From Roseateles toxinivorans (lineage in GTDB: Bacteria > Pseudomonadota > Gammaproteobacteria > Burkholderiales > Burkholderiaceae_C): a stretch of 35,461 bases of DNA. This document shows positions 15,079-35,049 of the stretch, in pieces (positions within the stretch are counted from its first letter, which is position 1; every line of letters begins with the position of its first letter). The stretch lies in NCBI GenBank assembly GCA_945898095.1, contig CAMDHE010000044.1, positions 1-35,461 of the forward strand. The letters run 5' to 3'. Below the pieces are notes generated by a model. The model saw only the letters and a list, made by a program, of their open reading frames with translations. It ran no database searches and was not told the DNA's origin. Made by a program: the position numbers and the translations under genes.

Positions 15079-15099
15079 CGCGATGCTCCGTTAGCTTTA

Positions 15100-15263: not shown

Positions 15264-15266
15264 TAA

Positions 15267-17232: not shown

Positions 17233-17322
17233 CGCTACAAACTCCCGTGCGGCAACTTCACGGTGGCGCTCGCATCCACCCGTCCGAATCCGCAAATGCT
17301 GGCCTGGCCTGGCTGCACGGCC

Positions 17323-18501: not shown

Positions 18502-18546
18502 CTTCAAAACCCTTCTTGCTTAGTCAGAACAGATTTCAGCCCAACC

Positions 18547-18628
18547 GTCATTGCAAACACAACCGAGCCCCCCAGCCCTTGGGGACGCTCCGCATGGCTT
18601 GCCTCGCCGCTTCATTGCTCGCAATGAC
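18547..18628. repeat. REP/MITE-like palindromic element
   Basis: The ends GTCATTGC (18547-18554) and GCAATGAC (18621-18628) are perfect inverted repeats, with GCTTGCCTCGCCGCTTCATT near the right end. Elements with GTCATTGCGAG-type ends are widespread in bacterial genomes as dispersed repeats. It occupies the gap between the amidohydrolase and MFS genes and might form a transcript hairpin inside the operon. Confidence 0.55.
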
Positions 18629-18666
18629 AGGACAAATTCTTCGCCTTTTGAACTGCCGAAACCTCG

Positions 18667-19902
18667 TCATGAAAGGCGGTTGCGCACCAGGGCGCCACCC
18701 TTCATGATGACTGGAATATTTTTCTCTGGCTTTCGAAACAACGCCAGGTCGGCGAAGGGGTTGCCTTCGAGCACCAGGATGTCGGCCAGCGCGCCGGCCT
18801 GGATACAGCCCAATTGGCCGGCCATCTGCAGGATTTCGGCGTTGATCGAGGTCGCAGAGCGCAAAACGTCGATGGGTTTGCTAACCTCGCCGCGCAATTC
18901 GAACTCGCCGCCCTGGAACGGGTGAAATGCGTGATCCAGCAAGTCAGTGCCAAAACCCAGCTTGACGCCAGCCCTCGCGCAGACCTCGATCGCGCGAAGC
19001 GCCTCATTGCCGACGCCCTTGATCTTGGCAACAACCTCGGGCGGCAGCTTGAGGTCGTCCACATGGCGCTTGAGCACGTCGACCACCGAAAGCGTCGGTA
19101 CAACGTAGGTGCCGTTCCTGGCGAGAATGCGTGCGGTCTCGTCCTGATGGATCATCGTGCCATGCTCGATGCTGCGCACACCGTATTCCGAGCATCGGCG
19201 CGACGAATCGTCGGTGTGGCTATGTGCCATCACATAGGTCCGACGCGTCGCGGCCTCGTAGACAGCGGCACGGATTTCTTCCTCGGTGAACTGCGGCATC
19301 CATATCGGGTCCGTGGGTGACAGAACGCCTCCCGAGACGAATATCTTGATTTGGTGCGCGCCTTTGCGCAACTCTTCGCGCACTGCAATACGCACCGCGT
19401 CAGCGCCGTCAGCCACCAACGATAGGGCGCCGGCGAAAACACCACAGCCACACAGTTCGCGTTCGTTGCCGGGCCGCATATCGCCATGCCCCCCGGTCTG
19501 CGAGATGGCACGGCCGGAAAAGTAAAAACGCGGGCCCTTGATGAGCCCCTGCTCGATTGCCATCCACAAGCCCATATCACCGCCCGCGGCATCGCGCACC
19601 GTCGTGAAGCCGCGCTGCAGCGTGCCTTCGAGCACTTTTGCCGCGTGGACTGCCATCAGCGGCGGCAGCATATGCTCGATCACAGCAACGCTCATGCTCG
19701 GGGAGTTCGCATGAAAGTGGCAGTCGATCAGACCCGGCATCAGATAACGGCCCTGGCAATCGATGACCTGAGCATTGGCGAAACTACCGCAGTTGGCACC
19801 GACTTCCTTGATTTGTCCATCTTCAACGACGACATCGCCGCCATCCAGGATTTCTTCGCTATGGCCGTCAAAGATCTTCGCGTTCTTGAATAGGGTAATC
19901 AT
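18667..19902 (-). CDS. Metal-dependent amidohydrolase (imidazolonepropionase/prolidase-like)
   Basis: The product has 411 residues and the complete amidohydrolase superfamily active site: HxH as His62 and His64 in LIDCHFHAN, the carboxylatable Lys186 in HQIKIFVSGG, His227 in VMAHSHT, His247 in SIEHGTM and Asp320 in LGFGTDLL. PGLIDCHFH after an N-terminal beta-sandwich is typical of cytoplasmic enzymes that cut cyclic amides or N-acyl/peptidyl bonds. The ATG overlaps the hyuB stop by 4 bases, so it belongs to the same operon and should act on the same pathway, for example on the product of the HyuAB reaction. The exact substrate is unknown. Confidence 0.88.
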   Translation of the reverse strand: MITLFKNAKIFDGHSEEILDGGDVVVEDGQIKEVGANCGSFANAQVIDCQGRYLMPGLIDCHFHANSPSMSVAVIEHMLPPLMAVHAAKVLEGTLQRGFTTVRDAAGGDMGLWMAIEQGLIKGPRFYFSGRAISQTGGHGDMRPGNERELCGCGVFAGALSLVADGADAVRIAVREELRKGAHQIKIFVSGGVLSPTDPIWMPQFTEEEIRAAVYEAATRRTYVMAHSHTDDSSRRCSEYGVRSIEHGTMIHQDETARILARNGTYVVPTLSVVDVLKRHVDDLKLPPEVVAKIKGVGNEALRAIEVCARAGVKLGFGTDLLDHAFHPFQGGEFELRGEVSKPIDVLRSATSINAEILQMAGQLGCIQAGALADILVLEGNPFADLALFRKPEKNIPVIMKGGALVRNRLS

Positions 19903-21632
19903 GCTGCACGCAATTCGTCTGTTTGTTGCTGGTCCACGGCCAATTCGCCGGCTCGCTCCACCACCACGACTCGGCAGACCGCCTGCGCTTGCGCCGCGTC
20001 GATGAAGCCGTTGCGAATGTCGGCCAACACCAGTTGCGGGTCGCGCTCCAGAGGCGATCCCCAGCCGCCGCCGCCGCCCGTGGTGGAGCGAAATACCGTG
20101 CCTTTGGGAAAGGGCCCGATGCTGGCAATGCGTTCGGTGTAGGTCTTCTCTTCTGCCGTGCCGGGATTCAATGCGAAGAAACCAGGGCGACCACTGCCCC
20201 CGCCGTTGACGCCCTTGGACGTCACATCCTTGGTGTTTTCTGTGAGCAAGCCCAGGAAGCAACCCTCTTCCAGCAGTCGGTAGTCCTTGAGCACACCCTT
20301 ACCGCCAAAGAATCTGCCCACGCCGCGCATTTCGGACGCGAACTCGAAGCGCTCGATGCGCACCGGATGCCGCGTCTCGGTCACCTCGACCGGGTTGTTC
20401 GGCAGATCGCCATTGCCGATCAACTGGTTCGTGGGGCCATCGCTGTCGTGCGTGGCGCCATTGCCACCGTGCACCGGATCGATACAGATGAAGGGCTTGC
20501 CTAATTCTGGCTGAATGCGCGAAATAAATCCGCCGGTCAATTGGTAACCGCCGGCCGGGCATGTTTCGGGAAGGATGTTGGCAAAGCAGCGAAACATCAA
20601 CTCCATCAGACACTCGACAATGTAACCGTAAGAATCGGTGGGCGCAGGCCGCTGCGGATTGATGATGCTGGACGGCGGCAGTTCGAACTCCAGGCACTGC
20701 GTGTGCCCGGCGTTGCAGGGGTCATGGGGCATGAGCAGGCCCTTGATCGACGAGGCCAGGATGCCGCGCGTGCAGGGCGCGGGCAAGTTGATGGGGCCCT
20801 GCGCGGTCGGGCTGGAGCCGTGGAGTGAAAACGCGATGCGGTCAGGCAATACCGTGACTTTCAGGCACACCAGGAATTCGCCATGCGGATTCACACCGTC
20901 GCTGTCCATTCTTATCGACGCGCCGTATTCGCCCTGCGGCAACTTGGCCACAGCGCGCCGCATGGCCTTGTCGGTTTCGACGATCACATGCGCCATCGAC
21001 TCGCGTACCACATTGGCGCCGTATTTGGCGCACAACGCCTGAACCCGAGCCACCCCCTGGCGGCAAGCGGCGATCTGAGCTTCAAGATCGCCCTTGACGA
21101 TGACGGGCAAACGCACGTTGTCGGCGATGAAATCCCAAAGCGCTTCGTTCTTGACACCTGCGGCGATGATTTTCTGGTGGCGAAAACACATGCCTTCCTG
21201 GTACATGTCGGTGGTATCCGGGCACCAACCCCCGGGGCTCTTGCCGCCGATGTCGGCCCAGTGCGCGCCGATACCGCAAAAGGCTATCAATTCGCCCTGG
21301 TGAAAGGCGGGCATGTAGATATTGGTGTCAGAGATATGCGTGCCGGTCTCGAACGGATCGTTCACGATCATCACGTCGCCCTCATCGAAGCGACCGTCCC
21401 AGCGCCGGATGCCGGCGCGTACCGCATCGGGAAAGGCCTGGCTGAAGACAATCACGCCCGGTGTTTCGGCCCACATGTCGCCCTGTGCAGACATGATGGT
21501 GACCGAGAAGTCCTGGACTTCGTACAGTAGGGGGCTATAGGCCGTGAGAATCAAGGTCTTGGCCATCTCCTCGGTACTGGCGACCAAGCGGTTGCGAATT
21601 ATTTCTGTCAAGACGACATCGATAACAGTCAT
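19899..21632 (-). CDS. hyuB: HyuB-type subunit (hydantoinase B/oxoprolinase family)
   Basis: The product has 577 residues, normal for HyuB. Visible landmarks are DVVLTEIIRNRLVASTEEMA, GDVMIVNDPFETGTHISDTN, HWADIGGKSPGG and the C-terminal TTGGGGGWGSPLERDP. HyuA and HyuB together form ATP-dependent enzymes that open hydantoins, 5-oxoproline and lactams; related pairs act as acetone or acetophenone carboxylases. The HyuA subunit phosphorylates and HyuB carries the metal site. The gene starts 9 bp after hyuA and overlaps the amidohydrolase by 4 bases. AAGAGA precedes the ATG. Confidence 0.92.
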   Translation of the reverse strand: MTVIDVVLTEIIRNRLVASTEEMAKTLILTAYSPLLYEVQDFSVTIMSAQGDMWAETPGVIVFSQAFPDAVRAGIRRWDGRFDEGDVMIVNDPFETGTHISDTNIYMPAFHQGELIAFCGIGAHWADIGGKSPGGWCPDTTDMYQEGMCFRHQKIIAAGVKNEALWDFIADNVRLPVIVKGDLEAQIAACRQGVARVQALCAKYGANVVRESMAHVIVETDKAMRRAVAKLPQGEYGASIRMDSDGVNPHGEFLVCLKVTVLPDRIAFSLHGSSPTAQGPINLPAPCTRGILASSIKGLLMPHDPCNAGHTQCLEFELPPSSIINPQRPAPTDSYGYIVECLMELMFRCFANILPETCPAGGYQLTGGFISRIQPELGKPFICIDPVHGGNGATHDSDGPTNQLIGNGDLPNNPVEVTETRHPVRIERFEFASEMRGVGRFFGGKGVLKDYRLLEEGCFLGLLTENTKDVTSKGVNGGGSGRPGFFALNPGTAEEKTYTERIASIGPFPKGTVFRSTTGGGGGWGSPLERDPQLVLADIRNGFIDAAQAQAVCRVVVVERAGELAVDQQQTDELRAA

Positions 21633-21641
21633 ATTTATCTC

Positions 21642-23711
21642 TTATTTGATAGCTGGATCAAGGACCAAGTTGCCGTAGTCGTCGCAAAGGCAGGTCCAAC
21701 CGGGCGGGACAACGGTGGTCATGGTCCACTCGTCGACGATGGCCGGGCCCTGCAGTTTTTGCCCGGGTGCCAAGGTATCGCGCTCGACGATTTGCGTCGG
21801 CACCATGGCACGCAAGCTGTGGAAATAGACGGGCCTGCTGCGCGGTATAGCCACCTTGGTCGGCGCAGAAATTCGCGCCACTTCAGGGGCGCGCACGCGG
21901 CCAATAGCCCGGCAGCGGATCGACACCTGTTCCAGGTTGGCGGCTGGGTCACCATGACCGTACAAACGCAGATGCGAGCTGACAAAGCGCTCGCGCACCC
22001 CAGCCAGGATCGATGCGCCATCGCGCCAAGCCGGATCCAACTCGACCGTGATGGTGAATTCCTGATTCTCGAAGCGTATGTCCACACGGCGCAGCAAAAC
22101 GATCTCTGCGCGCTCAAAACCGTAGCCGGCCACAGCCTGGAGCGCGTGTTCGGCGAGTTCATCCAGGACCAGCAGGCTTTGCCCGATATGCCCGCTGTCA
22201 AACGGCAGAACCTTGGTGCGCACCTGATCCTCGACATAGTCGCTGCTGAGAATGCCCCAGGCAGAAAAATTCGCCGGTGCGATCGGAACAATGACGCGCG
22301 GCACTTCCAGTTCCTCAGCCACCGAACAGGCAAATAGACCACCACCGCCACCGTAGGCCAGCGACACGAACTCGCGCGGATCCAGGCCGCGCGCGACGGT
22401 CTTGGTGCGAATCGCATTCGCCATATTGGTTTCGGCGATGGCCACGATGCCGTGCGCGGCCTGCTGCACGGTGATGCCCAAGGGCTTGGCGATTTTCTCT
22501 TCGATCGCCCGGGTCGCTGCTGCCAGATCGAGCTGCATGCGCCCGCCCAGGAAATAGTCCGGGTCCAGGCGCCCCAACACCAGGTGGGCATCGGTCGTCG
22601 TAGGTTCAACGCCGCCGCGGCCAAAACAGGCCGGCCCCGGATGCGCGCCCGCGCTTTGTGGTCCCACCTGGAGACCCATGCGGTGGTCCAGCCAAGCCAT
22701 GGAGCCCCCACCAGCGCCGATCGAGATCACGTCGATGAGCGAGCCCAGCACCGGGCGGCGCGCAATTTCGGTCTGGCTGCGCTCGAGAATATTGCCGTCC
22801 TCGATGATGGCCACGTCGTAGCTGGTGCCGCCCACGTCGGTGCAGATGACGTTCTTGTAGCCCAGCAGCGAGCATAAGTACTTCGCGCCGATGACGCCGC
22901 CGGCCGGCCCCGACATCAGCGTGCGGATCGGCTTCATGCCTGCGGTCTGGGCGTCGGCGACGCCGCCGTTGGACTGCATGATCGCCAGCGGCTGGGTATA
23001 GCCAGCTTCGGTCAAATTCAATTGCAGTTGATCCAGATAACCCCTGACGATGGGCTGGATGAAGGCGTTGAGCACGGTGGTGGAGGTGCGCTCGTATTCC
23101 CGCCATTCGGCGGCGATGTCATGCGAGACCGACACCGGCAGCTGCGGATAGCGTGCCGCAATGCGTTCGCGCGCCGCAATCTCGTGCGACGGGTGCGCGT
23201 AAGCGTGAAGAAAAGTGATGGCGACGGCCTGTACGCCCTGGGACAGCAGGTAGTCCACCTCGCGGTCGACCTCGTTCAGGTCGATGGGCTCGAGCACCTC
23301 GCCCTGCACGCTGATGCGCTCGGTGACTTCGCGCCGCAAAAAGCGTTCGACCAGCGGCTTGGGGTTGCGTTGGACGAAATCGTAGACCGGCTTGCGCCCG
23401 CCGCGTCCCATTTCCAGCACGTCGCGAAACCCCCGGGTCGTGATCAGCCCGACCCGGGCGCCGCGCTCCTGGATCAGCGCATTCACACCCACGGTCATGC
23501 CGTGGAAGATGCGGCCGATCGTCGCCATGTCCACGCCAAAGGCGCTCAGACCCTTCATGAACTGCTCGGGTAGCTGATGGGCGATCGACGGCACTTTTTC
23601 GATCCGGATTTCGCCCGTCTGCTCGTCCATCAGGACGAAGTCCATGAAGGTGCCGCCGACGTCGACAGCGATCCGATATTTCGACTGCATAGCTTTCACA
23701 AGCATTTTCAT
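21642..23711 (-). CDS. hyuA: HyuA-type ATPase subunit (hydantoinase A/oxoprolinase family)
   Basis: The product has 689 residues. The N-terminal phosphate-binding motif, normally DVGGTFTD, reads DVGGTFMD here (Met23). Later motifs are intact: GMTVGVNALIQERGARVGLI, LMSGPAGGVIGAKY, VICTDVGGTSYDVAII, VISIGAGGGSMAW and AYGGGGGLFACSVAEEL. HyuA uses ATP to activate the cyclic amide (or ketone) for cleavage by HyuB. It is the first gene of a leftward unit of six (to 15267). The ATG at 23711 has GAGG 8 nt upstream. A box with a C8 tract ends 61 bp before it. The Thr-to-Met change is odd for an otherwise complete protein. Confidence 0.92.
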   Translation of the reverse strand: MKMLVKAMQSKYRIAVDVGGTFMDFVLMDEQTGEIRIEKVPSIAHQLPEQFMKGLSAFGVDMATIGRIFHGMTVGVNALIQERGARVGLITTRGFRDVLEMGRGGRKPVYDFVQRNPKPLVERFLRREVTERISVQGEVLEPIDLNEVDREVDYLLSQGVQAVAITFLHAYAHPSHEIAARERIAARYPQLPVSVSHDIAAEWREYERTSTTVLNAFIQPIVRGYLDQLQLNLTEAGYTQPLAIMQSNGGVADAQTAGMKPIRTLMSGPAGGVIGAKYLCSLLGYKNVICTDVGGTSYDVAIIEDGNILERSQTEIARRPVLGSLIDVISIGAGGGSMAWLDHRMGLQVGPQSAGAHPGPACFGRGGVEPTTTDAHLVLGRLDPDYFLGGRMQLDLAAATRAIEEKIAKPLGITVQQAAHGIVAIAETNMANAIRTKTVARGLDPREFVSLAYGGGGGLFACSVAEELEVPRVIVPIAPANFSAWGILSSDYVEDQVRTKVLPFDSGHIGQSLLVLDELAEHALQAVAGYGFERAEIVLLRRVDIRFENQEFTITVELDPAWRDGASILAGVRERFVSSHLRLYGHGDPAANLEQVSIRCRAIGRVRAPEVARISAPTKVAIPRSRPVYFHSLRAMVPTQIVERDTLAPGQKLQGPAIVDEWTMTTVVPPGWTCLCDDYGNLVLDPAIK

Positions 23712-23735: not shown

Positions 23736-23804
23736 ATGGTGGCCGGCTTCGGCAGGGTCAGCAAGCGGTACGGCGGGTGGGGCGTGCTGAAAAGTTGGGG
23801 GGGG
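23736..23804 (-). promoter_or_regulatory. Hyu box 1 and promoter of the leftward hyuAB operon
   Basis: Read on the minus strand: C8 (23804-23797), 15 nt, then CCCACCCGCC (23781-23772), 30 nt, then a -10-like CACCAT (23741-23736). The same order occurs at box 2 and box 3. Box 1 and box 2 face away from each other, each toward its own operon. No good -35 is seen, as expected for an activator-dependent promoter. Confidence 0.6.
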
Positions 23805-23826
23805 CGTTGCCGGTCCGTCGCGCGCA

Positions 23827-23896
23827 CCCCCCCCCCCGATTCGCCACGCACCCCACCCGGCAAACTAATCGATTGGACAAGGGCAAGCGCCAGAAT
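23827..23896 (+). promoter_or_regulatory. Hyu box 2 and promoter of the HyuA-like/DUF917 operon
   Basis: A run of 11 C (23827-23837) is followed by GATTCGCCACGCA, then CCCCACCCGGC (23851-23861), and 29 nt later by the -10-like CAGAAT (23891-23896). Start of translation is at 23933. The region GATTCGCC and the CCCACCCG block match box 3 closely. Confidence 0.65.
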
Positions 23897-23932
23897 GTAT
23901 GCAAGCAACGACCGCTCTCGATCGAGGAAAGA

Positions 23933-25495
23933 ATGAAGAAAACTAAACTCAGGCTGGGCATCGACGTGGGGGGCACGAACACCGACGGGGTGCTGATGTC
24001 GGGCAGCGAGGTGCTGGGGGCCCACAAGAGCTTCACCACAGACGACATCAGCGGGGGCGTGATCAGCACAGTGAGCGAGCTGCTGCAAGGATCAGGCGTG
24101 CCGGCGGGCAATATCGGCAGCGTCATGATCGGAACGACGCAGTTCGTCAACGCCTTCCTGCAACGCCGCCATCTGTCCGAAGTGGCGGTGGTGCGCATTT
24201 GCCTGCCGAAGTCGGACGGCGTGCCACCGATGGTGGCCTGGCCAGACGACCTGCGCGCCATCATCGGCTCTCACATCTATCTGGTGGGTGGCGGCTCCTT
24301 CTACACCGGACTCGAATATGCGTCATTGGACGAGGATGAGTTGGACAAGGTTGGCCGCGACATCGCGAAAAAGGGCTTGAATGCGATCGTCATCACCGCC
24401 AACTTTGCGCCGGTGCGCCCTGACATCGAGGAGCGTGCCGCGTCCATCCTGCGCCGGCATCTGCCCAACGCCGACATCACGCTGTCGGCGCAAGTCGGCG
24501 GTATGGGTCTGATCGACCGGGAGAATGCCGCCATCATCAACGCCGCGTTGTCCCAACTCTCGCGCAAGGTCGTCACCTCGCTCGTCAGTGCCTTCCAAAG
24601 CGTGGGCATCAATGCCCCGATCTACATCAGCCAGAACGACGGCACGCTGATCAGCACCGAGTATGCGCAGCGCTTTCCCATCTTCACCTGCTCGGCCGGC
24701 CCCACCAACAGCATCCGGGGCGCGGCCTTCCTCACGGGCTTGCAGGAAGCCGTGGTGGTGGACATCGGCGGTACGACGACCGACGTTGGCTTCCTGCTGC
24801 GCGGCTTTCCAAGAGAGACCGCCACCGCCAACACCATCGGCGGCGTGCGGACCAACTTTCGCATGCCCGACGTGCTCTCGATCGCTCTGGGGGGCGGCAC
24901 GGTTGTGCGTCAAAGTGCCACCGGCATCACCCTGGGGCCGGACTCGGTGGGCTACCAGCTCAAGGACAAGGGCATGATCTTTGGCGGCGACACGCTCACC
25001 ACCACCGACATCGCGGTGCGTGCGGGCCAGTTCTCGCTGGGCGACAGGAGCAAGGTCGCGGGCCTTCCCGATGCGTTGGTGAGCAGCGTGCTGGACATCA
25101 TCCACGCCCGCATCGAGGTCGCCATCGACCAGATGAAGACCAACAGCCGGCCAGTGCCCGTGGTGCTGGTCGGCGGCGGTGCGATCCTGGTGTCGCGTCC
25201 CCTCAAAGGTGCCTCTCAGGTGTACCAGCCCGAGTATGCCGAAGTGGCCAATGCCATAGGTGCGGCGATCGCACTGGTCAGCGGCCGTGTGGACCGGCTC
25301 TTTGACGTCGGTGCGCTGGGACGCGAAGGCGCGCTGGCCAAGGCCAAGAGCGAGGCCATCGCCGCCGCCGTTGCTGCGGGCGCCGACCCGGACAGCGTGC
25401 AGATCGTGGATGTGGTCGAACTGCCGATGATGCACATAAAGAGCGGTTCGGTGCAGATCAAGGTGCGCGCCGTGGGCGAGCTGGCTGACGAATGA
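23933..25495 (+). CDS. HyuA-like hydantoinase/oxoprolinase-family ATPase (short type)
   Basis: The product has 520 residues, shorter than the classical HyuA (about 690) because the C-terminal domain is missing. The first phosphate motif is GIDVGGTNTDGVLM, with Asn as in this subfamily, and the second is VVVDIGGTTTDVGFLLRGFP. GTTQFVNAFLQRR, SAGPTNSIRGAAFL and SIALGGGTVVR complete the ATPase core. There is no HyuB partner; instead a DUF917 protein follows 28 bp downstream. This pairing is common, and related fused proteins are known, so the two probably form one enzyme. The start is the ATG at 23933 with GAGGAAAG before it; the frame is open further upstream through the box region but without family sequence. 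Confidence 0.9.
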   Translation: MKKTKLRLGIDVGGTNTDGVLMSGSEVLGAHKSFTTDDISGGVISTVSELLQGSGVPAGNIGSVMIGTTQFVNAFLQRRHLSEVAVVRICLPKSDGVPPMVAWPDDLRAIIGSHIYLVGGGSFYTGLEYASLDEDELDKVGRDIAKKGLNAIVITANFAPVRPDIEERAASILRRHLPNADITLSAQVGGMGLIDRENAAIINAALSQLSRKVVTSLVSAFQSVGINAPIYISQNDGTLISTEYAQRFPIFTCSAGPTNSIRGAAFLTGLQEAVVVDIGGTTTDVGFLLRGFPRETATANTIGGVRTNFRMPDVLSIALGGGTVVRQSATGITLGPDSVGYQLKDKGMIFGGDTLTTTDIAVRAGQFSLGDRSKVAGLPDALVSSVLDIIHARIEVAIDQMKTNSRPVPVVLVGGGAILVSRPLKGASQVYQPEYAEVANAIGAAIALVSGRVDRLFDVGALGREGALAKAKSEAIAAAVAAGADPDSVQIVDVVELPMMHIKSGSVQIKVRAVGELADE

Positions 25496-25523
25496 CCTAC
25501 CAACCCAACCGACGAACACCCAT

Positions 25524-26624
25524 ATGCGAATGATTGAAACCGTGCAGGAAATCCAGGACATGGCCCGAGGGGCGGTCTTTTTGGGGTCGGGCGGCGGAGG
25601 CGATCCCTACGTGGGCGAGTTGTTCCTGCGCCAGCAGCTCAACCTGGGGCGTCACGCGAAGATCGTGGACGCCAGTGAGCTGGCCGATGACGCCTTTGTC
25701 ATTTGTATCGCCGGCGTGGGCGCGCCCACCGTGCTGGTGGAGCACCTGGTCAGCGCCAAGACGCTGCTGCGCGTGCTCGAGCATGCTGAAAAATTCTACG
25801 GTCGCAAGGTCGACGCGCTGATCTCGGCCGAAATAGGCGGGGCCAACTCGATGTTCCCGGTGGCGCTGGGCGCGCAGACCGGGCTGCCAGTGGTCGACGG
25901 GGACGGCATGGGGCGGGCATTTCCGCACCTGGAGATGACCACCTTCAGCGTCTACGGCATCAAGACCAGCCCGGGCTTCGTGATGGACGATTCGGGCAAC
26001 GTGGTGAGCTTCGAGACCAGCACCGACCGGCTGGCCGAGGAAGTCGTGCGCGGCGTCGCCACCGCGCTGGGGGCCATGGTCTACGGCTGCTTTTACCCGA
26101 TGTCGGGTGCGCAGGTAAAGGCGACCGCTGTGCTCGGCACCATCAGCCAGACCATAGAGATCGGCCGGCATATCCGCGAAGCGCGAGACCATTTCGAGGA
26201 CCCATTCACCGGCCTGATGGCCTACCTGAACGACCCGGCCAAGGAACGCCATGCGCGCATCCTCTTCGACGGCAAAATCGTCGACGTGACGCACGAGACT
26301 CGGGACGGCTGGCATTGGGGGCGCGTGGTGATCGGTAACACCACCGACGAGTCGGATCAGCTCACCGTGGACATCCAGAACGAATTCCTGATCGTAAAAA
26401 GAAATGGCCGCACCGTGACCGTGGTGCCGGACTTGATCAGCGTGCTGGACACCGAGACCGCCGAGCCGCTGACGGCCGAGATGCTCGCCTACGGCCAGCG
26501 CGTTCGCGTCATCGGCTACAGCGCTGCGCCAGTCATGCGCAGACCCGAATGCCTGAAGGTCTTCGGTCCCAGGATGTTCGGCCTGGACGAAGACTTCGTG
26601 CCGGTGGAAGAGTTGACGGGCTGA
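25524..26624 (+). CDS. DUF917 family protein
   Basis: The product has 366 residues. Characteristic blocks are GAVFLGSGGGGDPYVGEL near the N-terminus, SAEIGGANSMFPVALGAQTG, VVDGDGMGRAFPHLEMTTF and a C-terminal GYSAAPVMRRPECLKVFGP. The biochemical role of the family is not established; it usually accompanies a HyuA-like ATPase and may take the place of HyuB. The Gly-rich loop near residues 18-27 suggests nucleotide or phosphate binding. Two close ATG codons (25524, 25530) are possible and neither has a clear ribosome site, so translation may depend on the upstream gene. The gene faces the LuxR-type regulator tail to tail, 70 bp apart. Confidence 0.9.
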   Translation: MRMIETVQEIQDMARGAVFLGSGGGGDPYVGELFLRQQLNLGRHAKIVDASELADDAFVICIAGVGAPTVLVEHLVSAKTLLRVLEHAEKFYGRKVDALISAEIGGANSMFPVALGAQTGLPVVDGDGMGRAFPHLEMTTFSVYGIKTSPGFVMDDSGNVVSFETSTDRLAEEVVRGVATALGAMVYGCFYPMSGAQVKATAVLGTISQTIEIGRHIREARDHFEDPFTGLMAYLNDPAKERHARILFDGKIVDVTHETRDGWHWGRVVIGNTTDESDQLTVDIQNEFLIVKRNGRTVTVVPDLISVLDTETAEPLTAEMLAYGQRVRVIGYSAAPVMRRPECLKVFGPRMFGLDEDFVPVEELTG

Positions 26625-26694
26625 AGTCGACCGCACTCTCCTCCCTCGCACCACAGCAGTCGGGCGGCAAGGCGCGCCGCGCTCGAGAGTTTTT

Positions 26695-29385
26695 TCAGGG
26701 CATCAGCGCACGGCGCCGTGCTTGCGCTACCGCATCCTCGCGCTTGCCCACTTCGAGCTTGGCGAAGATCGCCTTCAGGTGCTTTTTCACGGTCTCGGGA
26801 GACAGCAGCAGCGTCTTGGCGATCATTTTGGTCGACTGGTCCTTGGCCAATTCACAAAGGACATCGAGCTCACGGGGCGTGAACGCGCTGGTGGCGCTTG
26901 GTCGACTGAACGCACTGGTGGCGCTGGACCTTGCGCGGAATGCGGACTCCCAGGTTTTGACCACATGCCCGGCCCAGGCGCTGGTCAGCCCCAGGCTTTT
27001 TTCGCTCACGGCCCTGACCTGGACCATCACTTCCGCGCCAAAGCCGATAAATATCTGCACCACGCCGCATTTCTGCGCAAACAGCAATGCGCGCTGCAGA
27101 TCGCGCCCAGCTTCGCCATCGCGTCCCAGCAGACGCAAGGCATGCGAACGCATCACCAGCGCGGTGATTTCACTGAGGTGGTAGCTGCTCGCTATGGACA
27201 TCGCCAGAAATAGATTGGCGGTTTCGAGTGCCGCGTCCTGCCTCTCTGCATGCAGTTGCAGGAAAAAGCGCGCTCGTGCAAGGGCCTCCACCGTATCCCA
27301 GGGCAGCGTCGCGGGCAGGCAGGCAGACTGCCAGAGCTCGTCCAGTGGCATGGAGGTAGCGATGAGCTCGGCATTGATGGCTTCGCCGAATCTCACTTCG
27401 AGTTCGACCTGAGCTGCGGCGGCGATCGCCGCAAGATGGGGGAGGTTTTCCTCAGCAGCGAAATGGCGTGCGCCATTCAACAGTTCGATCGCGCGCAGGG
27501 CATTGCCACCTGCCGCTTCGCAGATCGCCGGGTCCACCATCGTGCCGACGTAAAACTCAAACATATTGAACGACTCTGTCAAAACAATGGATGAAAATTG
27601 CCCCACTGCTGCGTCAAGGTCAGCGCGCTGAAAGAGTATTTTTCTCAGTAAGACCGAGGTGACTTGACCGAGAACATGGGGCCGGTATTGCACGAAGTTG
27701 ACGTCTTGGTGCAGCAAATGCCGGATGATTTGCTCGGCGTTGTCGAGCTCGCCGCGGGCATAGGCATTGCGCGCCTGGTACATCCGTATCCAGGGTTTGG
27801 TCAGATAACCTGAATCCCGATACAAGCGTTCGATCTGGGCCGTGCGGCGCTCGCACCGGTCCACCGGGCCGTAGCGTTGCAACAAGCTGATTTCGATCGA
27901 CAAGCACATGCACAGCGCTCGTCTGTCTTCGGCACCACCGGCCTGAGCCAACTGCTTGGCATGCTCCAGCACGGGCCACCGCGAAAACAGCAGCGACTGC
28001 TCGGCCTGGGTCAGCAGCATGGAACAACGCGCCACCTCAAGTTCCAGTCGCGCCGGGCCCTCGGCACAAAGTTCACTTTCATTGATGGCAGTTTCGATAC
28101 GCTCAAACTGGACGCCAGGCGTCAGACTCAGCGCAACCTGCTGCACCATTCGCAGCAAGCGCAACCGGGGATGGCGAGAAATCGTCGCTGGCGGCAGCAG
28201 CTGCAGCATCGCGCGCACACGCAGAGCGCCTTCGCTGAGCAGCAACAGAATCGCCCCTGCGTCTTCGATCATTTGCGCCGCTGCATCCAGCTGGCCGGCA
28301 GCCACTGCATGTTCCACCGCCTCGTAAACCCGCTGCCTTTCGATCATGTGGTGCGCGGCGCGCAAATGCAGCTCAGCTCTCTTACCCGGGGCGCTTACGT
28401 CCATCGCATCAAGAAAATAGTCGCTCAACAAAGGGTGCAGTCGCGCGCTCCAATTTGATTCATCCACGACCACAATGGGCTTCAACGCGGAGAGTTCACG
28501 GATAAACCCCAGGCTGTCAAGGCGCTTGCGCACCGAGTTCGCCGAATCCACGTCCAGCGTTGCCAGCACCGACACCTCCGAAAGAAACGCAAGGGTCTCG
28601 GGTTTGAGCGTGGAAAAAACCTCCTCGGCCAGGTAGTCAAAAATCTGTCGGCGCGGCATCTTGGCGCTGGCTTCGACAGTCCAGTTGTCCAGCGCTCCTC
28701 CGACGGCGCTCAAGCGCGCCAGTTGCAGCGCGAAGGGCCAGCCGTCGGCATAGCTGGCAACCTGCTCCAGCGCCTGCTGCGGCATATAGTCCTGCAGCAA
28801 GGAACAGGTCTCGGAAAAGTTGAAGCGCAGGAAGTCGGCGTCGACAATCCGGATCTTGCCCGCCAGCTGCAGCCTCGTCAGCGGAATATGCGGCATCTCA
28901 CGACTCGCCAGCACCACGCTGACATTGACCGGAGCCGCCCAGGTGATGGCTTCGATGACATCGTCCACCAGTTCCGTGGAGGCGATTTCAAACTCGTCGA
29001 TGAAGATCAGCAGCGGCTGCGAAATGCCGGCAATAAGGCCTGCCAAGTCAGGCGCCTGTGCCCTTCCCTTGAGTTTCGAAGGCAGCTTGCTGTAGGCCAG
29101 TGCCGCCAGCAAGCTCTCGGAAAATATTTCCGGATCCTTGTCCTTGGCATCACAGTTCAACCAGCAGACCGTGGCGCCTTCCTGTTCTGCACGGCGTGCC
29201 AGTTGTGCCAGCAGCGTGGTCTTGCCAAAGCCGGCTGGGGCGACCACGACGGTCAAACGTGCCGTCGTCGGCGGCGCCGAAAGCAGCAGCGAAATCAGGC
29301 GCTCGCGCCAGACCGCCTCATCGATATGCACGATCGGTGCATATTGACTACGTTGGGCTTGCCTGAGATGACCTCTGAATTTCAT
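26695..29385 (-). CDS. MalT-type (LAL) LuxR-family ATPase regulator
   Basis: The product has about 896 residues from the ATG at 29385. It has an N-terminal STAND ATPase with the P-loop VVAPAGFGKTTLL (residues 49-57) and the Walker B LLIFIDEFE. A long helical, TPR-like sensor fills the middle, and the C-terminal LuxR HTH reads FTPRELDVLCELAKDQSTK and then LLLSPETVKKHLKAIFAKL. MalT-type proteins bind inducer and ATP, oligomerise and activate catabolic promoters at short asymmetric boxes. The frame is open to 29499, but that upstream ATG directly touches the C8 tract of box 3 and the added 38 residues do not look like the family, so 29385 is preferred. A 27-bp tandem duplication (26881-26898 and 26908-26925) sits in the linker just before the HTH. 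It is the best candidate activator for boxes 1-3. Confidence 0.88.
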   Translation of the reverse strand: MKFRGHLRQAQRSQYAPIVHIDEAVWRERLISLLLSAPPTTARLTVVVAPAGFGKTTLLAQLARRAEQEGATVCWLNCDAKDKDPEIFSESLLAALAYSKLPSKLKGRAQAPDLAGLIAGISQPLLIFIDEFEIASTELVDDVIEAITWAAPVNVSVVLASREMPHIPLTRLQLAGKIRIVDADFLRFNFSETCSLLQDYMPQQALEQVASYADGWPFALQLARLSAVGGALDNWTVEASAKMPRRQIFDYLAEEVFSTLKPETLAFLSEVSVLATLDVDSANSVRKRLDSLGFIRELSALKPIVVVDESNWSARLHPLLSDYFLDAMDVSAPGKRAELHLRAAHHMIERQRVYEAVEHAVAAGQLDAAAQMIEDAGAILLLLSEGALRVRAMLQLLPPATISRHPRLRLLRMVQQVALSLTPGVQFERIETAINESELCAEGPARLELEVARCSMLLTQAEQSLLFSRWPVLEHAKQLAQAGGAEDRRALCMCLSIEISLLQRYGPVDRCERRTAQIERLYRDSGYLTKPWIRMYQARNAYARGELDNAEQIIRHLLHQDVNFVQYRPHVLGQVTSVLLRKILFQRADLDAAVGQFSSIVLTESFNMFEFYVGTMVDPAICEAAGGNALRAIELLNGARHFAAEENLPHLAAIAAAAQVELEVRFGEAINAELIATSMPLDELWQSACLPATLPWDTVEALARARFFLQLHAERQDAALETANLFLAMSIASSYHLSEITALVMRSHALRLLGRDGEAGRDLQRALLFAQKCGVVQIFIGFGAEVMVQVRAVSEKSLGLTSAWAGHVVKTWESAFRARSSATSAFSRPSATSAFTPRELDVLCELAKDQSTKMIAKTLLLSPETVKKHLKAIFAKLEVGKREDAVAQARRRALMP

Positions 29386-29499
29386 GCGCCGGAAAGAAGG
29401 TGGACAAACAAACTGCGGACATCTTTTTGTGGGCAGATGGTAATGCGATTCACTTGGCGATCGACCGGTCTGCATTGGGGCATATGAAATTACGTGCAT

Positions 29500-29567
29500 C
29501 CCCCCCCGATTTGCCGAGTCATCCCACCCGCCAACTCACGCCAGCCTAATCCGATGCAGCACAGAAT
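29500..29567 (+). promoter_or_regulatory. Hyu box 3 and promoter reading toward the second hyuAB pair
   Basis: A run of 8 C (29500-29507), GATTTGCCGAGTCAT, then CCCACCCGCC (29523-29532) is followed after 29 nt by the -10-like CAGAAT (29562-29567). Box 2 has the same hexamer at the same distance. The site lies 114 bp from the preferred LuxR start, on the divergent side. Confidence 0.65.
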
Positions 29568-29647
29568 ACACATGGCGGCAAGTACCCAACGCCGGTTCAA
29601 GAAACGCACCCGGTTACCCTGCCCACACAATTAAAAGGAGACTCCCC

Positions 29648-29782
29648 ATGCAAGCTCGCAAGAACAGCAATGCACAGCTCACCCCGATTCCTTTGTACGC
29701 TTACCAAGCGAGAAGTCAATGTATCGAGTTGATGTTGAAGTTGAAGTGTGCGGGCCGATTACAAAGCCGATCATCAATCTGA
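29648..29782 (+). CDS. Small open reading frame with strong ribosome site, possibly a truncated gene
   Basis: The frame has 44 codons and begins MQARKNSNAQLTPIPLYAYQ. The sequence AAAAGGAGACTCCCC before its ATG is the best ribosome site in the region, and it is the first frame after the box 3 promoter. I do not recognise the protein. Base composition turns AT-richer at about 29700, in the middle of the frame, and an overlapping frame at 29718-29801 encodes a 27-residue peptide ending in MVCGK. The likeliest reading is the first 20 or so codons of a lost gene joined to the edge of the lower-GC hyuAB segment; a leader peptide is the alternative. Confidence 0.45.
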   Translation: MQARKNSNAQLTPIPLYAYQARSQCIELMLKLKCAGRLQSRSSI

Positions 29783-29827
29783 TCATGGTGTGCGGTAAAT
29801 AAACTTCGGTTAACGAGATCACAAAAT

Positions 29828-31873
29828 ATGAAACGAATGGCAACAGACGTCGGCGGGACGTTTACGGATATCGTCTGGGTAGACGAAGCAAGTGGTGACG
29901 TCCACACGGATAAAGCGCCAACGACTCCTGGGGACGTTGTTCAGGGAGTTTTGGCGGTAATGCAAAAAACCAAGGTCGCAGCGGCCGAGATTGGTCAGTT
30001 TGTCCACGGCTCGACCGTGGCGACAAACTCTCTGGTCGTCAAAAGCGGCGGCAAAACAGGTTTGATCACAACACGCGGGTTCCGTGACTCAATTGAAATA
30101 CGGCGAGTCAATCGACCCGATGCGCATATCTACAATATTTTCTGGCGCAAACCGGATGCACTGATCCCGCGCGCGCTGCGCCTTGAAGTGACGGAACGAC
30201 TGCACTTTTCCGGCAAGGTCCTGCAGCCGGTCCAATACGACGATGTAGTGACAGCGGTAGAGGCACTTCGCAAGGAAGGGGTCGAGACCATCGCAGTTTG
30301 CTTCCTTCACGCTTACGCTAATCCCGCCCACGAACTTGAAGTCCGGGCAATCATCACCAAACTTTGGCCCGAGGTGTATGTCTCAATGAGTCATGAGGTG
30401 GCCAGAGAAATACGCGAGTACGAGCGCGTCAGTTCGACCGCAATCGATGCCTATGTCAAAAAGCCTGTCGTCAGCTATCTGCGTCGGCTGCAGAAGTCTT
30501 TCCACTACGATCTTGGCGTTCCAAATGATCCGCTAATTGCCAATTCGACTGGGGGCGTGTCGACCATTGACGCAATCGAACGGGCGCCAATCCAGATGCT
30601 TGCATCCGGACCGGCGGGCGGGGCGATTGGTGCTGCGTATCTTGCCGGCAAGACAGGCATGCTCAATCTAGTGACTGCCGATGTGGGTGGCACTACCTTT
30701 GATGTCTCCTTGGTCGTTAACGGCCGAAACGTCTTGCGTAACGAGCATGAAGTGCTGGGATATGTCGCAAAAGTTTCGTCGATAGATGTTCGAAGCGTTG
30801 GCTCGGGTGGTGGAAGCATTGCCTCTGTCGATGCCGGTGGAATGTTGGAGGTTGGTCCGGCAAGCGCCGGTGCTGATCCGGGCCCCATGTGCTACGGCCG
30901 AGGAGGCGATCGCCCAACCGTCACCGATGCTGCGGTAGTTAGTGGCATCATCGACTGGGAACGGTTCGCCGGTGGAGAAATGCTGCTTAAGCCGGAACTA
31001 TCGGCCCAGGGTGTTGAGCAGATTGCCACACGACTCGGCATTTCTTCCGACCAAGCCGCAGAGGGCATCCTTACGGTGGCCCGCAACGTCATGGCGGATG
31101 TGACGCGTCAGATTTTGGTTGGTCAGGGGCATGACCCGCGTGATTTCTCATTGCTAGGATTCGGCGGCGGTGGCGGGTTGTTTGCTTGCGACGTTGCCCG
31201 AAATCTCGACATTCCTACGGTGGTCATACCCAATCATCCGGCGGCTTTTTCCGCCTGGGGAATGCTCAGCGCCGACATCATCGGATCATTCGCACGGAGT
31301 TATGTCCAATCGGCCGATACGCTTGACCCGGCGGTTATCCGCGGCCTCTTTGCGGAAATGGAAAAAGAAGCAGTCAGCCTGATGGCCGAAGCGAAGGTAG
31401 AGCCTGGTCGAGTGACCCTCGAGCGCGTCGTCGAAGCACGCTACGAAGGTCAGGGACACGAAGTGGAAGTCTCCATGGACGGTCTAGCCCTGGATGACTC
31501 GCTGCGAACAACACTTTCCCAACGTTTTGAAGAGCGCCATGTTTATCGTTTTGGCCACTCGATGCAGGCTTCTCTGGAAACAGTCACGTTTCGGCTGCGT
31601 GCTTTTGGTGCTATGACCAAGCTGGCGATTCGCAATATCGCGATCGGCAACTCGAATGCGGAGGCGGCGCTGGTCCGAACCCGGTTGATTCACCTGGCCG
31701 GTCAGCGGCGTGATTGCGCCATTTATGAGCGCAGCAAATTACTGGCAGGCAATGTCATTCATGGCCCGGCAATCGTCGAGGAACCAGCACATGTGACCCT
31801 CATTTTCCCAGGCGACATCCTCAGGGTTGACGCCTACGGCAATCTCGTTGTGACTATCGGAGCGGATTCATGA
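29828..31873 (+). CDS. hyuA: Second HyuA-type ATPase subunit
   Basis: The product has 681 residues and all family motifs: TDVGGTFTDIVWVDEASGD (residues 6-24, with the normal Thr13), GSTVATNSLVVKSGGKTGLI, LASGPAGGAIGAAYLAG, TADVGGTTFDVSLVVNG, RSVGSGGGSIASVDAGG and LGFGGGGGLFACDVARNL. With the next gene it forms a complete HyuAB pair, an ATP-dependent ring-opening amidohydrolase or a carboxylase. It is clearly divergent from the HyuA at 21642 and is not a recent duplicate. The base composition is visibly lower in GC than the neighbours and rich in A/T third positions, which suggests acquisition from another lineage. Only a weak GAGA precedes the ATG. Confidence 0.93.
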   Translation: MKRMATDVGGTFTDIVWVDEASGDVHTDKAPTTPGDVVQGVLAVMQKTKVAAAEIGQFVHGSTVATNSLVVKSGGKTGLITTRGFRDSIEIRRVNRPDAHIYNIFWRKPDALIPRALRLEVTERLHFSGKVLQPVQYDDVVTAVEALRKEGVETIAVCFLHAYANPAHELEVRAIITKLWPEVYVSMSHEVAREIREYERVSSTAIDAYVKKPVVSYLRRLQKSFHYDLGVPNDPLIANSTGGVSTIDAIERAPIQMLASGPAGGAIGAAYLAGKTGMLNLVTADVGGTTFDVSLVVNGRNVLRNEHEVLGYVAKVSSIDVRSVGSGGGSIASVDAGGMLEVGPASAGADPGPMCYGRGGDRPTVTDAAVVSGIIDWERFAGGEMLLKPELSAQGVEQIATRLGISSDQAAEGILTVARNVMADVTRQILVGQGHDPRDFSLLGFGGGGGLFACDVARNLDIPTVVIPNHPAAFSAWGMLSADIIGSFARSYVQSADTLDPAVIRGLFAEMEKEAVSLMAEAKVEPGRVTLERVVEARYEGQGHEVEVSMDGLALDDSLRTTLSQRFEERHVYRFGHSMQASLETVTFRLRAFGAMTKLAIRNIAIGNSNAEAALVRTRLIHLAGQRRDCAIYERSKLLAGNVIHGPAIVEEPAHVTLIFPGDILRVDAYGNLVVTIGADS

Positions 31874-33603
31874 GCACAAATACACCTATAGACCCGATTA
31901 CGCTTGCCGTTGTCAGGAACTTTCTGCAAGCAACTGCTACCGAAATGCGTGACACGATTCAACGTACTTCGTTCTCACCGGTCATTTATGAGGACCGCGA
32001 CTTCGCCTGCGGCCTGCTCGATGCCGACGGGGGGACCGTCGCCGAGGCTCCGGGTCTAACTCTCTTCATGGGAACTCTCGGCCCAGCCGTAAGCAAGTGC
32101 CTCAATGTGCTCGGTCGCGATGTCGTCGAACCTGGTGACATCTTCATCGTTTCCTTGCCGGACTTCACCGGGTCTCATGCTGCCGACATGATGCTTTTCG
32201 CCCCGATTTATCACGGTGAACGCCTGTTTGGCTTCACGGCTAGCAAGGCCCACCTGGTCGACGTGGGTGCCAAAGATCCCTATCCAACTGACTCGACCGA
32301 TGCGTTCCAGGAAGGATTGCGGCTGCCACCAACCAAGCTATACCGCCGTAACCAGTTAAACACTGACGTCGAGGGAATTATCAAGTCCAATTCACGCGCA
32401 GCCGATGTCATCTGGGGCGACATTCAGGCAGAAATTGCCTGCTTCCGCGTCGGCGCCGCTGCCTGTCAGCGTCTGCTCGACAAATACGGATTCGACACGG
32501 TCAACGCATGCGTCACGGAGATGTACAACCACGCCGAACGCATGGCGCGCGCAGCAATTCGTACCCTGCCGGCTGGCACTTGGTCAGCGCAAGGACATCT
32601 CGACGATAACGGTGTGCAGCGGGGAATTCCGGTGCACATAGCAGTCGCAATTACAGTCGATCCGGTTGCCGAGACCATTATTTTTGATTACACCGGATCT
32701 GCTCCGGAACAGGGCGGCCCGACCAACACGCCCTTGATCAGCACTGTCTCGGTTTCGCGCATGATGGGGAAGATATTGTCTGCTCCAGACACGACTGCCA
32801 ATGAGGGTTCGTTTCGGCAGATCAGGATCATTGCGCCGGAAAGGACAATCTTCAACGCCTCTACAACTGCTCCGACTCAACTCTATGGATGGCCATTATT
32901 GAGCGCCGTCGAGATTATTTGCAAGGCATTGGCGCCTGTGTTTCCCAACCGCTTCCCGGCACAATCGGCCGGTGATCTTGGTGGTGTACTCCGTTACGGA
33001 TTCTGGCCAGAGACGGGGAAAATGTGGTTTCAGGCGAACATCGAAGGGATCGGTCAGGGCGCAAGCTCCTCCGCTGACGGTGAAAGTGCGATGGTTCACA
33101 TCGCAGAAGCCTGCTCGCGCAATCTGCCGGTCGAGATTGAGGAAACCAATACTCCGACTATCGTCGAACGGTATGAGTTGATCACTGACAGCGGCGGAGC
33201 GGGAACATTTCGTGGCGGTCTTGGCGTCAGGCGTGACTACAGGATGTTGATAAATGGCACCATGCTCTCCGCCCTCGAACGCACTACTTCGCCGGCAGAA
33301 GGTGTCCTTCTTGGTCAGACGGCGCATCCGAACCATGGCATGCTGGAATCAAAAACCCACGGAAACATCCGGTTTGCCAAGATACCTACACAACCCTTTG
33401 AAAACGGAGATTTGATTTCAGTTCGAACTGGCGGCGGGGGCGGATGGGGCGACCCGCACCTGCGTCCGCCGGAAGCTGTTCTGAAGGACGTTATAGACGG
33501 CTACGTCTCCGTGGCATCAGCTAAAGATGTCTATCACGTTGTCATCGACGCTGCGACCATGGCTATCAATCGGGATTCCACAGTGATTCTTAGAGGTCAA
33601 TGA
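31870..33603 (+). CDS. hyuB: Second HyuB-type subunit
   Basis: The product has 577 residues. Landmarks are ITLAVVRNFLQATATEMRDT, GDIFIVSLPDFTGSHAADMM, HLVDVGAKDPYPTDS, ETNTPTIVERYEL, TDSGGAGTFRGGLGVRRDYR and the C-terminal RTGGGGGWGDPHLRPPE. Its ATG overlaps the hyuA stop (ATGA). The same lower GC as in the preceding gene continues to its stop and ends almost exactly there. The partner reaction is as for HyuA; lactam, hydantoin or carboxylase activity cannot be separated from the sequence alone. Confidence 0.93.
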   Translation: MSTNTPIDPITLAVVRNFLQATATEMRDTIQRTSFSPVIYEDRDFACGLLDADGGTVAEAPGLTLFMGTLGPAVSKCLNVLGRDVVEPGDIFIVSLPDFTGSHAADMMLFAPIYHGERLFGFTASKAHLVDVGAKDPYPTDSTDAFQEGLRLPPTKLYRRNQLNTDVEGIIKSNSRAADVIWGDIQAEIACFRVGAAACQRLLDKYGFDTVNACVTEMYNHAERMARAAIRTLPAGTWSAQGHLDDNGVQRGIPVHIAVAITVDPVAETIIFDYTGSAPEQGGPTNTPLISTVSVSRMMGKILSAPDTTANEGSFRQIRIIAPERTIFNASTTAPTQLYGWPLLSAVEIICKALAPVFPNRFPAQSAGDLGGVLRYGFWPETGKMWFQANIEGIGQGASSSADGESAMVHIAEACSRNLPVEIEETNTPTIVERYELITDSGGAGTFRGGLGVRRDYRMLINGTMLSALERTTSPAEGVLLGQTAHPNHGMLESKTHGNIRFAKIPTQPFENGDLISVRTGGGGGWGDPHLRPPEAVLKDVIDGYVSVASAKDVYHVVIDAATMAINRDSTVILRGQ

Positions 33604-33649
33604 CTGTGCAATTGCCGGCTATTTTTATATTGAAATATCGGCATAAGTT

Positions 33650-34015
33650 TCGTTCGCCCGGAACAGCTGGAAGCGATCGTCGCCGGGCTGGTGCCCGCGC
33701 CTGTGGGGCACTTTCCCGCGTGTGCTGGGTCACTACTGCCATGGCCGGGGGCTGTTCTCGCTGGAGACGGCGGTGCACAAAATGACGGGGCTGACGGCCA
33801 AGCGCTTTGGCCTGCCCGATCGCGGCCTGATCGCTCCCGGTATGGCCGCCGACCTGTGCGTATTCAATGCTGACACGGTGATCGACCAAGCTACGTTCGA
33901 GGAACCGAAACGGGCCAGCGCCGGCATCGCCTGGGTGGTCGTGAACGGGCGAGTGGCATGGCGCCAAGGTGAAGCGGCGGCCCTGGCCGGCCAGTTGTTG
34001 GAGCGGCGGGCATGA
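33650..34015 (+). pseudogene. 3' remnant of a D-aminoacylase-like amidohydrolase, frameshifted
   Basis: RPEQLEAIVAGLVPAPV is read in one frame from about 33652, then GTFPRVLGHYCHGRGLFSL and MTGLTAKRFGLPDRGLIAPG in another. The C-terminus, GMAADLCVFNADTVIDQATF followed by EEPKRASAGIAWVVVNG, matches the end of N-acyl-D-amino-acid deacylases. Only about 120 codons of the usual 480 or so remain, the whole N-terminal metal site is missing, and a frameshift lies near 33700-33708. Its GC-rich composition differs from the hyuAB pair directly before it. The last codons overlap the start of the Rieske gene (ATGA), as in an intact operon. Confidence 0.75.
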
Positions 34016-35049
34016 GCGGCTTCATCCAGAACGCATGGTATGTCGCCGCCTGGGCCCACGAGGTTCCGGCCGACGGCTTGTTTGCACGCACCGTGATCGG
34101 CGAACCCCTGCTGCTCTACCGCACAGCCAGCGACGAAGTCGTGGCACTCGAAGACCGCTGCTGCCACCGCCAAGCACCTTTGTCGCGTGGACGAAAGGAA
34201 GGCGACTGCGTGCGCTGCGGCTACCACGGCCTGAAGTTCGACCGCCACGGCATCTGCGTCGAAGTACCCGGAATGGAAGCTGTGCCGCCGAAGGCCTGCG
34301 TGCGCAGTTTCCCCGTCGTCGTGCACAACAAGTGGATCTTTGTCTGGATGGGCGACAGTACCAAGGCCGACCCGGCGCTACTGCCAGATACCTTCAGCAA
34401 TGACCACCCCGAGTGGCGCTACCTGCCGGGCTACCTTCACTACGAAACGCCGTACGAACTGATCGCTGACAACCTGCTCGACTTCTCGCATTTGAGCTAT
34501 GTGCACGCGGCCACGCTGGGCGGCAGCGAACAGATCGCGCAGATACGGCCCAAGGTCGAGCGAATCGAGCGCGGCATCCATGTGCAACGATGGGTACCCA
34601 ATGTGCCACCGCCGGCCTATTACCAGCCGCTTTGGGACTATGGCGGGCTGGTTGACCGTTGGATCGAGTACGAATTCATTCTGCCGGCCACGCTGTTGAT
34701 GCATTCCGGCGCAAGCCCGGCGGGGGCGGCCCGTGATGACAACAGAACCGGCATCCGCTTCCACAGTTGCCAGGCCTTGACACCAGAGAGCGCCCACTCG
34801 ACGCATTATTTTTTCCAGGAGTCGCACCATGCGACACAGGGCGACGCCGGAACCACGCAAGGCTTGTACGAAGGATTGCTGGCGGCTTTCGAAGAAGACC
34901 GGCAGATGATCACCGCTCAATGGCGCAGCATGTCACTCAAGCCCGACGTGCCGATGCTGCCGCTGCATATGGATGCGGCGCTCACCCTTTTCAGGCGACT
35001 GGTGATGCAGGTGCTGGTCGAGGAGTCGAATTGCAAGGACTCGGCATGA
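34012..35049 (+). CDS. Rieske non-haem iron oxygenase (VanA/demethylase-like)
   Basis: The product has 345 residues. The Rieske 2Fe-2S cluster is bound by Cys50 and His52 ([14 protein letters not shown]) and Cys69 and His72 ([11 protein letters not shown]). The mononuclear iron site reads [18 protein letters not shown], with Asn154, Asp157, His160 and His165. This layout and length match the vanillate O-demethylase oxygenase group, which includes many O- and N-demethylases. A reductase partner is not seen. The gene is coupled at both ends by 4-base overlaps, with the aminoacylase remnant before it and soxB after it, so a role in demethylating an N-methyl compound before sarcosine oxidase is plausible but inferred. 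Confidence 0.9.

Follow-up and report, generated by a model that had tools for sequence, protein, structure and literature searches.

To our knowledge, few large MalT-type LuxR regulators have a defined operator. For MalT, one source describes a box built of GGA(T/G)GA repeats within GGGGA(T/G)GAGG and puts its 5' end at -34.5 to -35.5 (PMC7567727), and another names multimerization as the key step for cooperative MalT binding to MalT boxes and for RNA polymerase recruitment (PMC4381067). We analysed a 35,461-nucleotide stretch of DNA from Roseateles toxinivorans (contig CAMDHE010000044.1 of assembly GCA_945898095.1), referred to below as the window. It carries three paired C-rich elements, boxes 1 to 3, ahead of hydantoinase-type (hyu) genes, together with the gene of a large MalT-type LuxR regulator of the LAL group.

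The analysis indicates that the MalT-type regulator encoded at 26695-29385 probably binds these boxes as paired half-sites and activates the genes linked to them. The boxes look like docking sites of this regulator because a matching element adjoins the regulator gene in most distant relatives examined.

Box architecture and promoter elements

All three sites in the window carry the arrangement first put forward in the preliminary description, namely a C run, a gap of 14-15 nucleotides, a second block and a -10-like hexamer (Table 1). C or G runs of at least seven bases are confined to these boxes in the window. Boxes 1 and 2 face away from each other, here as in G409 and G251; in the window, their first-block anchor bases lie 42 bp apart.

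Eighteen sites were tabulated with two anchors set by the analyst: the base that follows the first C block, and the G that follows the second. Block spacing was 22 bp in 16 of the 18 and 21 bp in the other two. Like a MalT box, these are asymmetric G-rich sites in direct repeat, and the two-turn direct-repeat geometry proposed for the window is supported; so is the -10-like hexamer, likewise proposed earlier, at a nearly fixed distance from the box. The conserved core is CCCCC(G/A), 22 bp, CC(A/C)CCCG. CAT lies ahead of the C block in 7/18 first halves and 7/18 second halves, and one base further off in some, and the box therefore reads as a direct repeat of roughly CATCCCCCG. The GAGG end of the MalT consensus is not conserved. 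Seven bases past the second half, TTG occurs at 14 of the sites (TTGC at 11), boxes 2 and 3 of the window being without TTG at this -35-like place, and a hexamer reading CAGACT, CAGAAT or similar follows about 17 bases past the TTG. If this hexamer is the -10 element, the 5' ends of the G-rich half-sites would fall near -45 and -67.

The length of the C runs bears on two other explanations. The poly-C tracts might act as phase-variation switches, in which slipped-strand changes in the C run toggle the promoters. Close genomes do differ in the first tract of box 2 (C11 in the window, C8 for G409, C9 for G251), but box 1 has C8 in all three, the first block of distant relatives holds about five C, and single assemblies cannot reveal variation within a population. 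A switch of this kind is improbable, and judged from the sequences the C8 run is a feature of the clade, the conserved core being shorter. Alternatively, a G-quadruplex or another structure of the G-rich strand could act without a cognate protein, for which the several G runs on the opposite strand would speak; however, run lengths vary among sites that retain the 22-bp repeat and the hexamer position, which makes such a structure a highly improbable explanation.

Conservation of the box with the regulator

Orthologues of the regulator were sought in 59 relatives, 399 genomes of the family and 369 genomes of the class. At E ≤ 1e-60, they occurred in 11/399 family genomes; none was found in the 369 class genomes except the own genome, and none on plasmids at E 1e-60. 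Together with two more genomes from the 59-relative search, this yielded 13 genomes with the regulator (LAL+), with LAL identities of 39-100%: the own genome G000, and G409, G251, G252, G062, G174, G182, G405, G228, G036, G116, G389 and G007. Two public records, L044 and L045, match the G409 and G251 contigs in length and were not counted separately. LAL- denotes no match at E ≤ 1e-60 in the 59 relatives or the 399 family genomes, of which the family search does not name each negative.

Conservation in relatives, one of the expectations attached to the box at the outset, was borne out by a paired C block that adjoins the LAL gene or heads its operon in 12/13 LAL+ genomes. The two closest genomes, G409 and G251, keep all three boxes at homologous places, with a second block of CCC(A/C)CCCG, and nine more distant LAL+ genomes have the paired block either next to the regulator gene or leading its operon. 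That the box accompanies orthologues of the large LuxR protein, as had also been anticipated, was evident when one fixed pattern was applied to 36 genomes: it matched 8/13 LAL+ genomes at 14 places, every one at this locus, versus 2/23 LAL- genomes with one match each (places not inspected). The same pattern reversed gave one match each in 5/36 genomes.

The boxes of G228, G036, G116 and G389 were missed by the fixed pattern and found through looser patterns or by reading. Over the 13 loci, a looser pattern gave 27 matches, comprising 16 boxes, 2 that overlap a box out of register and 9 elsewhere. In G324, the one family genome of the 399 that has hyuA3 and in which no LAL was detected, no box was found on the 4.9-kb contig; this contig stops about 150 bases 5' of the first gene, so its lack of a box says little. 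G036 also has a second paired C element (L068 11447-11477, minus strand), which lies 5' of the regulator gene and faces a neighbouring 295-codon frame.

Rarity and matrix scores

A strict pattern occurred at three distinct places in the 4,713,174-base assembly (209 contigs), all in this window, and its reverse had no match in the same assembly. It also had no match in 100 dinucleotide shuffles of the window, and a similar pattern had none in 100 Markov-1 windows. The preliminary description had named many box copies unrelated to hyu genes as a refuting outcome; no strict copy lies outside the window in the own assembly. Since the strict pattern was derived from the three window sites themselves, these figures show the sites to be uncommon and similar to one another and are silent on their function.

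A matrix trained on nine sites from more distant genomes ranked boxes 3, 2 and 1 as the top three distinct places of the window, with scores of 27.8, 21.1 and 13.0 and the next place at 9.5. The top scores of 60 Markov-1 windows had a mean of 13.0 and did not exceed 19.0. Boxes 3 and 2 exceed all 60 and are therefore supported from outside, while box 1 rests, at the sequence level, on its likeness to boxes 2 and 3 and on its conservation in G409 and G251. The best score over 25 loci of remote paralogues was 13.1. A pattern drawn from the distant sites (at most 3 mismatches) matched box 3 in the own assembly, with 1 mismatch, and nothing else there; in LAL- genomes it gave 10 matches over 8/15, one with 2 mismatches and nine with 3. 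Separately, a loose pattern, CCCCCNGATTYGCC, matched 95/399 family genomes; it is too short to inform and was not used.

A chance or compositional artefact of a GC-rich genome would accommodate box 1, which alone scores at chance by the matrix, and the matches of the fixed pattern in 2/23 LAL- genomes and, reversed, in 5/36 genomes. It is nevertheless hardly credible in view of the 0/100 shuffles, the three places only in the assembly, the conservation across genera and the matrix scores of boxes 2 and 3 above all 60 Markov windows.

The MalT-type regulator

In Pfam, the regulator scored 35.8 bits for nSTAND_NTPase5 (cut-off 34) in its N-terminal NTPase and, in its C-terminal LuxR helix-turn-helix (HTH), 54.4 bits for GerE (cut-off 23.5); for a MalT-like superhelical repeat sensor, TPR_MalT reached 30.5 bits, below its cut-off of 45. 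The Walker A motif APAGFGKTT is invariant or nearly so across 12 orthologues, and many HTH residues are invariant, for example S862, P863, E864, T865, K867 and H869. Against the NCBIfam MalT equivalog the protein scored 206.8 bits and did not reach the cut-off of 537, and by this measure of sequence it is not a MalT orthologue.

The closest solved relative by profile (PDB) was MalT (8bob, E 7.6e-38, N-terminal part covered). The predicted fold also placed 8bob first (E 3.8e-13), in a loose superposition with a root-mean-square deviation of 22. Next came a second STAND protein and several ATPases that are unrelated, and MalT domain III (1hz4) stood at rank 7 with a template modelling score by target of 0.73. 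The model used had a pLDDT of 77 and a pTM of 0.61, and its HTH was poorly modelled. BLASTP against Escherichia coli MalT aligned the NTPase region at 25% identity; a weaker second match takes in the HTH. The MalT-type nature earlier ascribed to the large LuxR protein thus holds, MalT being its best solved relative by profile and by fold.

A different regulator could bind the box, the LAL gene adjoining it only through one inherited locus. The boxes of the LAL+ genomes are all in one locus, so that linkage and binding are inseparable, and G007 keeps LAL without a detectable box. This explanation is unlikely, however, given that the half-site resembles the MalT box, that the LAL HTH holds many invariant residues, that genomes whose LAL identity is 39-53% still show the 22-bp spacing, and that the box heads the operon even where gene order differs, as in G389, where it stands 5' of hyuA3.

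Putative target genes and neighbourhood

A TonB-dependent receptor gene adjoins the regulator gene in 11/13 genomes, the exceptions being G000 and G389, and the box faces the receptor gene in ten of the 11 genomes that have it. The receptor gene of G252 runs off its contig, and hyuA3 and the regulator are on different contigs in that genome. In G389, the box is directly 5' of hyuA3 and no receptor gene occurs within the 15.5 kb read. On this comparison of loci, the usual target of the regulator-adjacent box appears to be the TonB-dependent receptor gene.

Orthologues of hyuA3 (E ≤ 1e-80) were found in 12/399 family genomes, including all 11 LAL+ ones. Separate boxes 5' of hyuA3 and hyuA1 were seen only in G000, G409 and G251. 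A cytosine/purine-type permease gene adjoins the S-Me-THD gene in both genomes checked (G007 and G389). Within the locus, the linked genes are thus hyu, S-Me-THD and TonB receptor genes, not maltose genes; no search was made for maltose genes outside it.

Table 1. Positions in the window of the boxes, their promoter elements, the regulator gene and neighbouring genes.
Feature	Position	Strand	Remarks
Box 1	23772..23804	-	5' of hyuA1-hyuB1; C8 at 23804-23797, 15-nucleotide gap, CCCACCCGCC; repeat spacing 22
Box 1 -10-like hexamer CACCAT	23736..23741	-	-35-like TTGCTG 17 nucleotides ahead
Box 2	23827..23861	+	5' of hyuA3-S-Me-THD; C11 at 23827-23837, 14-nucleotide gap, CCCACCCGGC; repeat spacing 21
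Box 2 promoter -10-like hexamer CAGAAT	23891..23896	+	
Box 3	29500..29532	+	divergent region adjoining the regulator gene; C8 at 29500-29507, 15-nucleotide gap, CCCACCCGCC; spacing 22
Box 3 promoter -10-like hexamer CAGAAT	29562..29567	+	
LAL/MalT-type regulator, 896 amino acids	26695..29385	-	STAND NTPase, putative helical-repeat middle, LuxR HTH; Pfam GerE and nSTAND_NTPase5
hyuB1	19899..21632	-	
hyuA1	21642..23711	-	ATG at 23711 not conserved in G409 or G251; ATG at 23690 conserved
hyuA3 (short HyuA-like)	23933..25495	+	co-occurs with the regulator
S-Me-THD-like protein	25524..26624	+	PF06032/PF20906
TonB-dependent receptor gene remnant	29648..29695	+	first 16 codons; homology ends there
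hyuA2	29828..31873	+	lower-GC segment in the place of the receptor gene
hyuB2	31870..33603	+	

The genes behind box 3 depart from this pattern. Box 3 is followed by an open receptor gene in both G409 and G251, and homology of the window to these genomes ends at 29695; among the genomes read, hyuA2B2 takes the place of the receptor on this contig only. The GC content of 29696-33700 is 55.6%, lower than the 61.8% on its left side and the 63.5% on its right, and third-position GC is 0.58-0.60 in hyuA2 and hyuB2 versus 0.71-0.85 in the five left neighbours measured. Since the receptor gene is cut after 16 codons with the low-GC hyuA2B2 next to it, the third hyu unit must have arisen in one of two ways: hyuA2B2 entered here by a recent local insertion and so captured box 3, or the assembly joined sequences of different strains. 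A repeat search over 29300-34000 returned short imperfect repeats only, with no clear insertion ends. A full receptor gene is present on contig C124 of the own assembly, which shares 141 bases with the window at 93% identity; C124 starts at the equivalent of window position 29555, just 3' of the expected place of the box, and a fourth box may lie 5' of this receptor copy. The earlier regulon proposal is supported for the most part, but its three hyu units therefore hold for this contig and not for the regulon at large, in which the receptor gene is the usual target of the regulator-adjacent box.

Three further observations concern the rest of the window. Downstream of hyuA1B1 and on the same strand, 13999-21632 holds genes for an amidohydrolase, an MFS transporter, an ornithine-cyclodeaminase-like protein, a pyridoxal phosphate enzyme and an HPPD-like protein, possibly forming a catabolic operon. 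A proline racemase gene lies at 5695-6705, and a relative of it adjoins the receptor gene in G251. At the right end, 35064-35461 is repeated on contig C45 at 95%, where the last 127 bases occur once more at 96%, and the minus-strand frame at 34917-35432 has no Pfam match; the contig perhaps ends in a mobile or repeated element.

Proposed mechanism and its weighing

We infer binding, activation, the inducer and the start sites from the arrangement of the locus, as follows. A molecule of the pathway would switch the regulator on; the regulator would then multimerise, and both half-sites of a box would be bound on one face of the DNA. As in the published account of MalT, the bound regulator would recruit RNA polymerase to the promoter immediately 3' of the box. 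In the ancestral regulon, the gene of the outer-membrane TonB-dependent receptor and the hyuA3-S-Me-THD genes would have been activated. In the clade of the window, the regulon would have gained a box 5' of hyuA3 and another 5' of hyuA1B1, and on this contig the hyuA2B2 pair lies behind box 3.

Several results weigh against binding of the boxes by this regulator. G007 has the LAL, TonB, hyuA3 and S-Me-THD genes, and no box was found there by pattern or matrix; a TACCC(A/G) pair 22 bp apart was seen in it by eye, post hoc. Box 1 is the weakest box, its matrix score of 13.0 being the chance level of the 60 Markov-1 windows, and the distant-site pattern (at most 3 mismatches) misses both box 1 and box 2 in the own assembly. 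Both this pattern and the matrix were designed with the window boxes known and hence not blind: the AT ahead of the first block was left out of the distant-site pattern, and spacings of 21 and 22 were allowed. The nine matches of the looser pattern elsewhere in the loci were set aside, and the 18 tabulated sites do not include the second pair of G036, whose spacing measured with those anchors is 24. Finally, the 5' end of the putative proximal half-site near -45 would lie about one turn upstream of the -34.5/-35.5 that PMC7567727 gives for MalT.

A more specific account is tentative, and we hold it possible rather than probable. The regulator may represent a separate branch of MalT-type activators in this family, whose operator is a rigid 22-bp pair of C blocks one turn further from the promoter than that of MalT, and which couples an outer-membrane receptor to hydantoinase-type ring opening. 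Under this account, the regulon would have spread by box gain in the window clade, and the longer poly-C half-site may tune or switch it.

Binding of the boxes by the MalT-type regulator, if correct, provides a large regulator of this type with a candidate operator sequence, a geometry and a target set that are open to testing. The target set, consisting of the TonB receptor, the HyuA-like and S-Me-THD-like proteins and, in G007 and G389, the permease, points to an uncharacterised route for the uptake and opening of ring amides. The distribution of the boxes suggests growth of the regulon by box gain within one bacterial family.

Comparison with known systems

Among the literature matches listed (titles and abstract starts; open-licence texts), no LuxR/MalT regulator of hydantoinase or S-Me-THD genes was found. 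In the promoter region of E. coli malP, TCATCCCCG and TAATCCCCCG lie at a distance of 24 bp and are oriented like the box; TCCTCCC also lies between the pair and GGATGA beyond it, on the other strand. The E. coli malE-malK region has TCATCC/TCCTCC sites and no pair like the box. The C-tract box had been introduced as new; it is better described as a MalT-type paired box with a half-site like those at malP.

The regulator resembles MalT of E. coli and Klebsiella in being a STAND-LuxR protein of about 900 amino acids with direct-repeat sites 5' of the promoter, and the half-site of the box resembles TCATCCCCG/TAATCCCCCG of malP in the same orientation. Unlike those of the MalT box, the half-sites here are C runs without a conserved GAGG end; they are 22 bp apart, whereas the malP pair is 24 bp apart; and the targets are receptor, HyuA and S-Me-THD genes rather than maltose genes. 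On this sequence comparison, the box is of the MalT kind, yet not the MalT box itself.

Two further systems are comparable. TpdR of Rhodococcus jostii TMP1 is likewise a LAL regulator, and its catabolic operon has two direct repeats 5' of the promoter (-79 to -65 and -51 to -37); unlike the boxes, these repeats are 15 bp long, differ in sequence and stand 28 bp apart start to start, and the system is actinobacterial (PMC6099782). In the MalT regulon of Actinoplanes, as at this locus, a MalT-like regulator is associated with a common motif at many promoters outside maltose metabolism, but that motif is a palindromic TCATCC-N5-GGATGA overlapping the -35 element, and not a direct repeat (PMC7567727).

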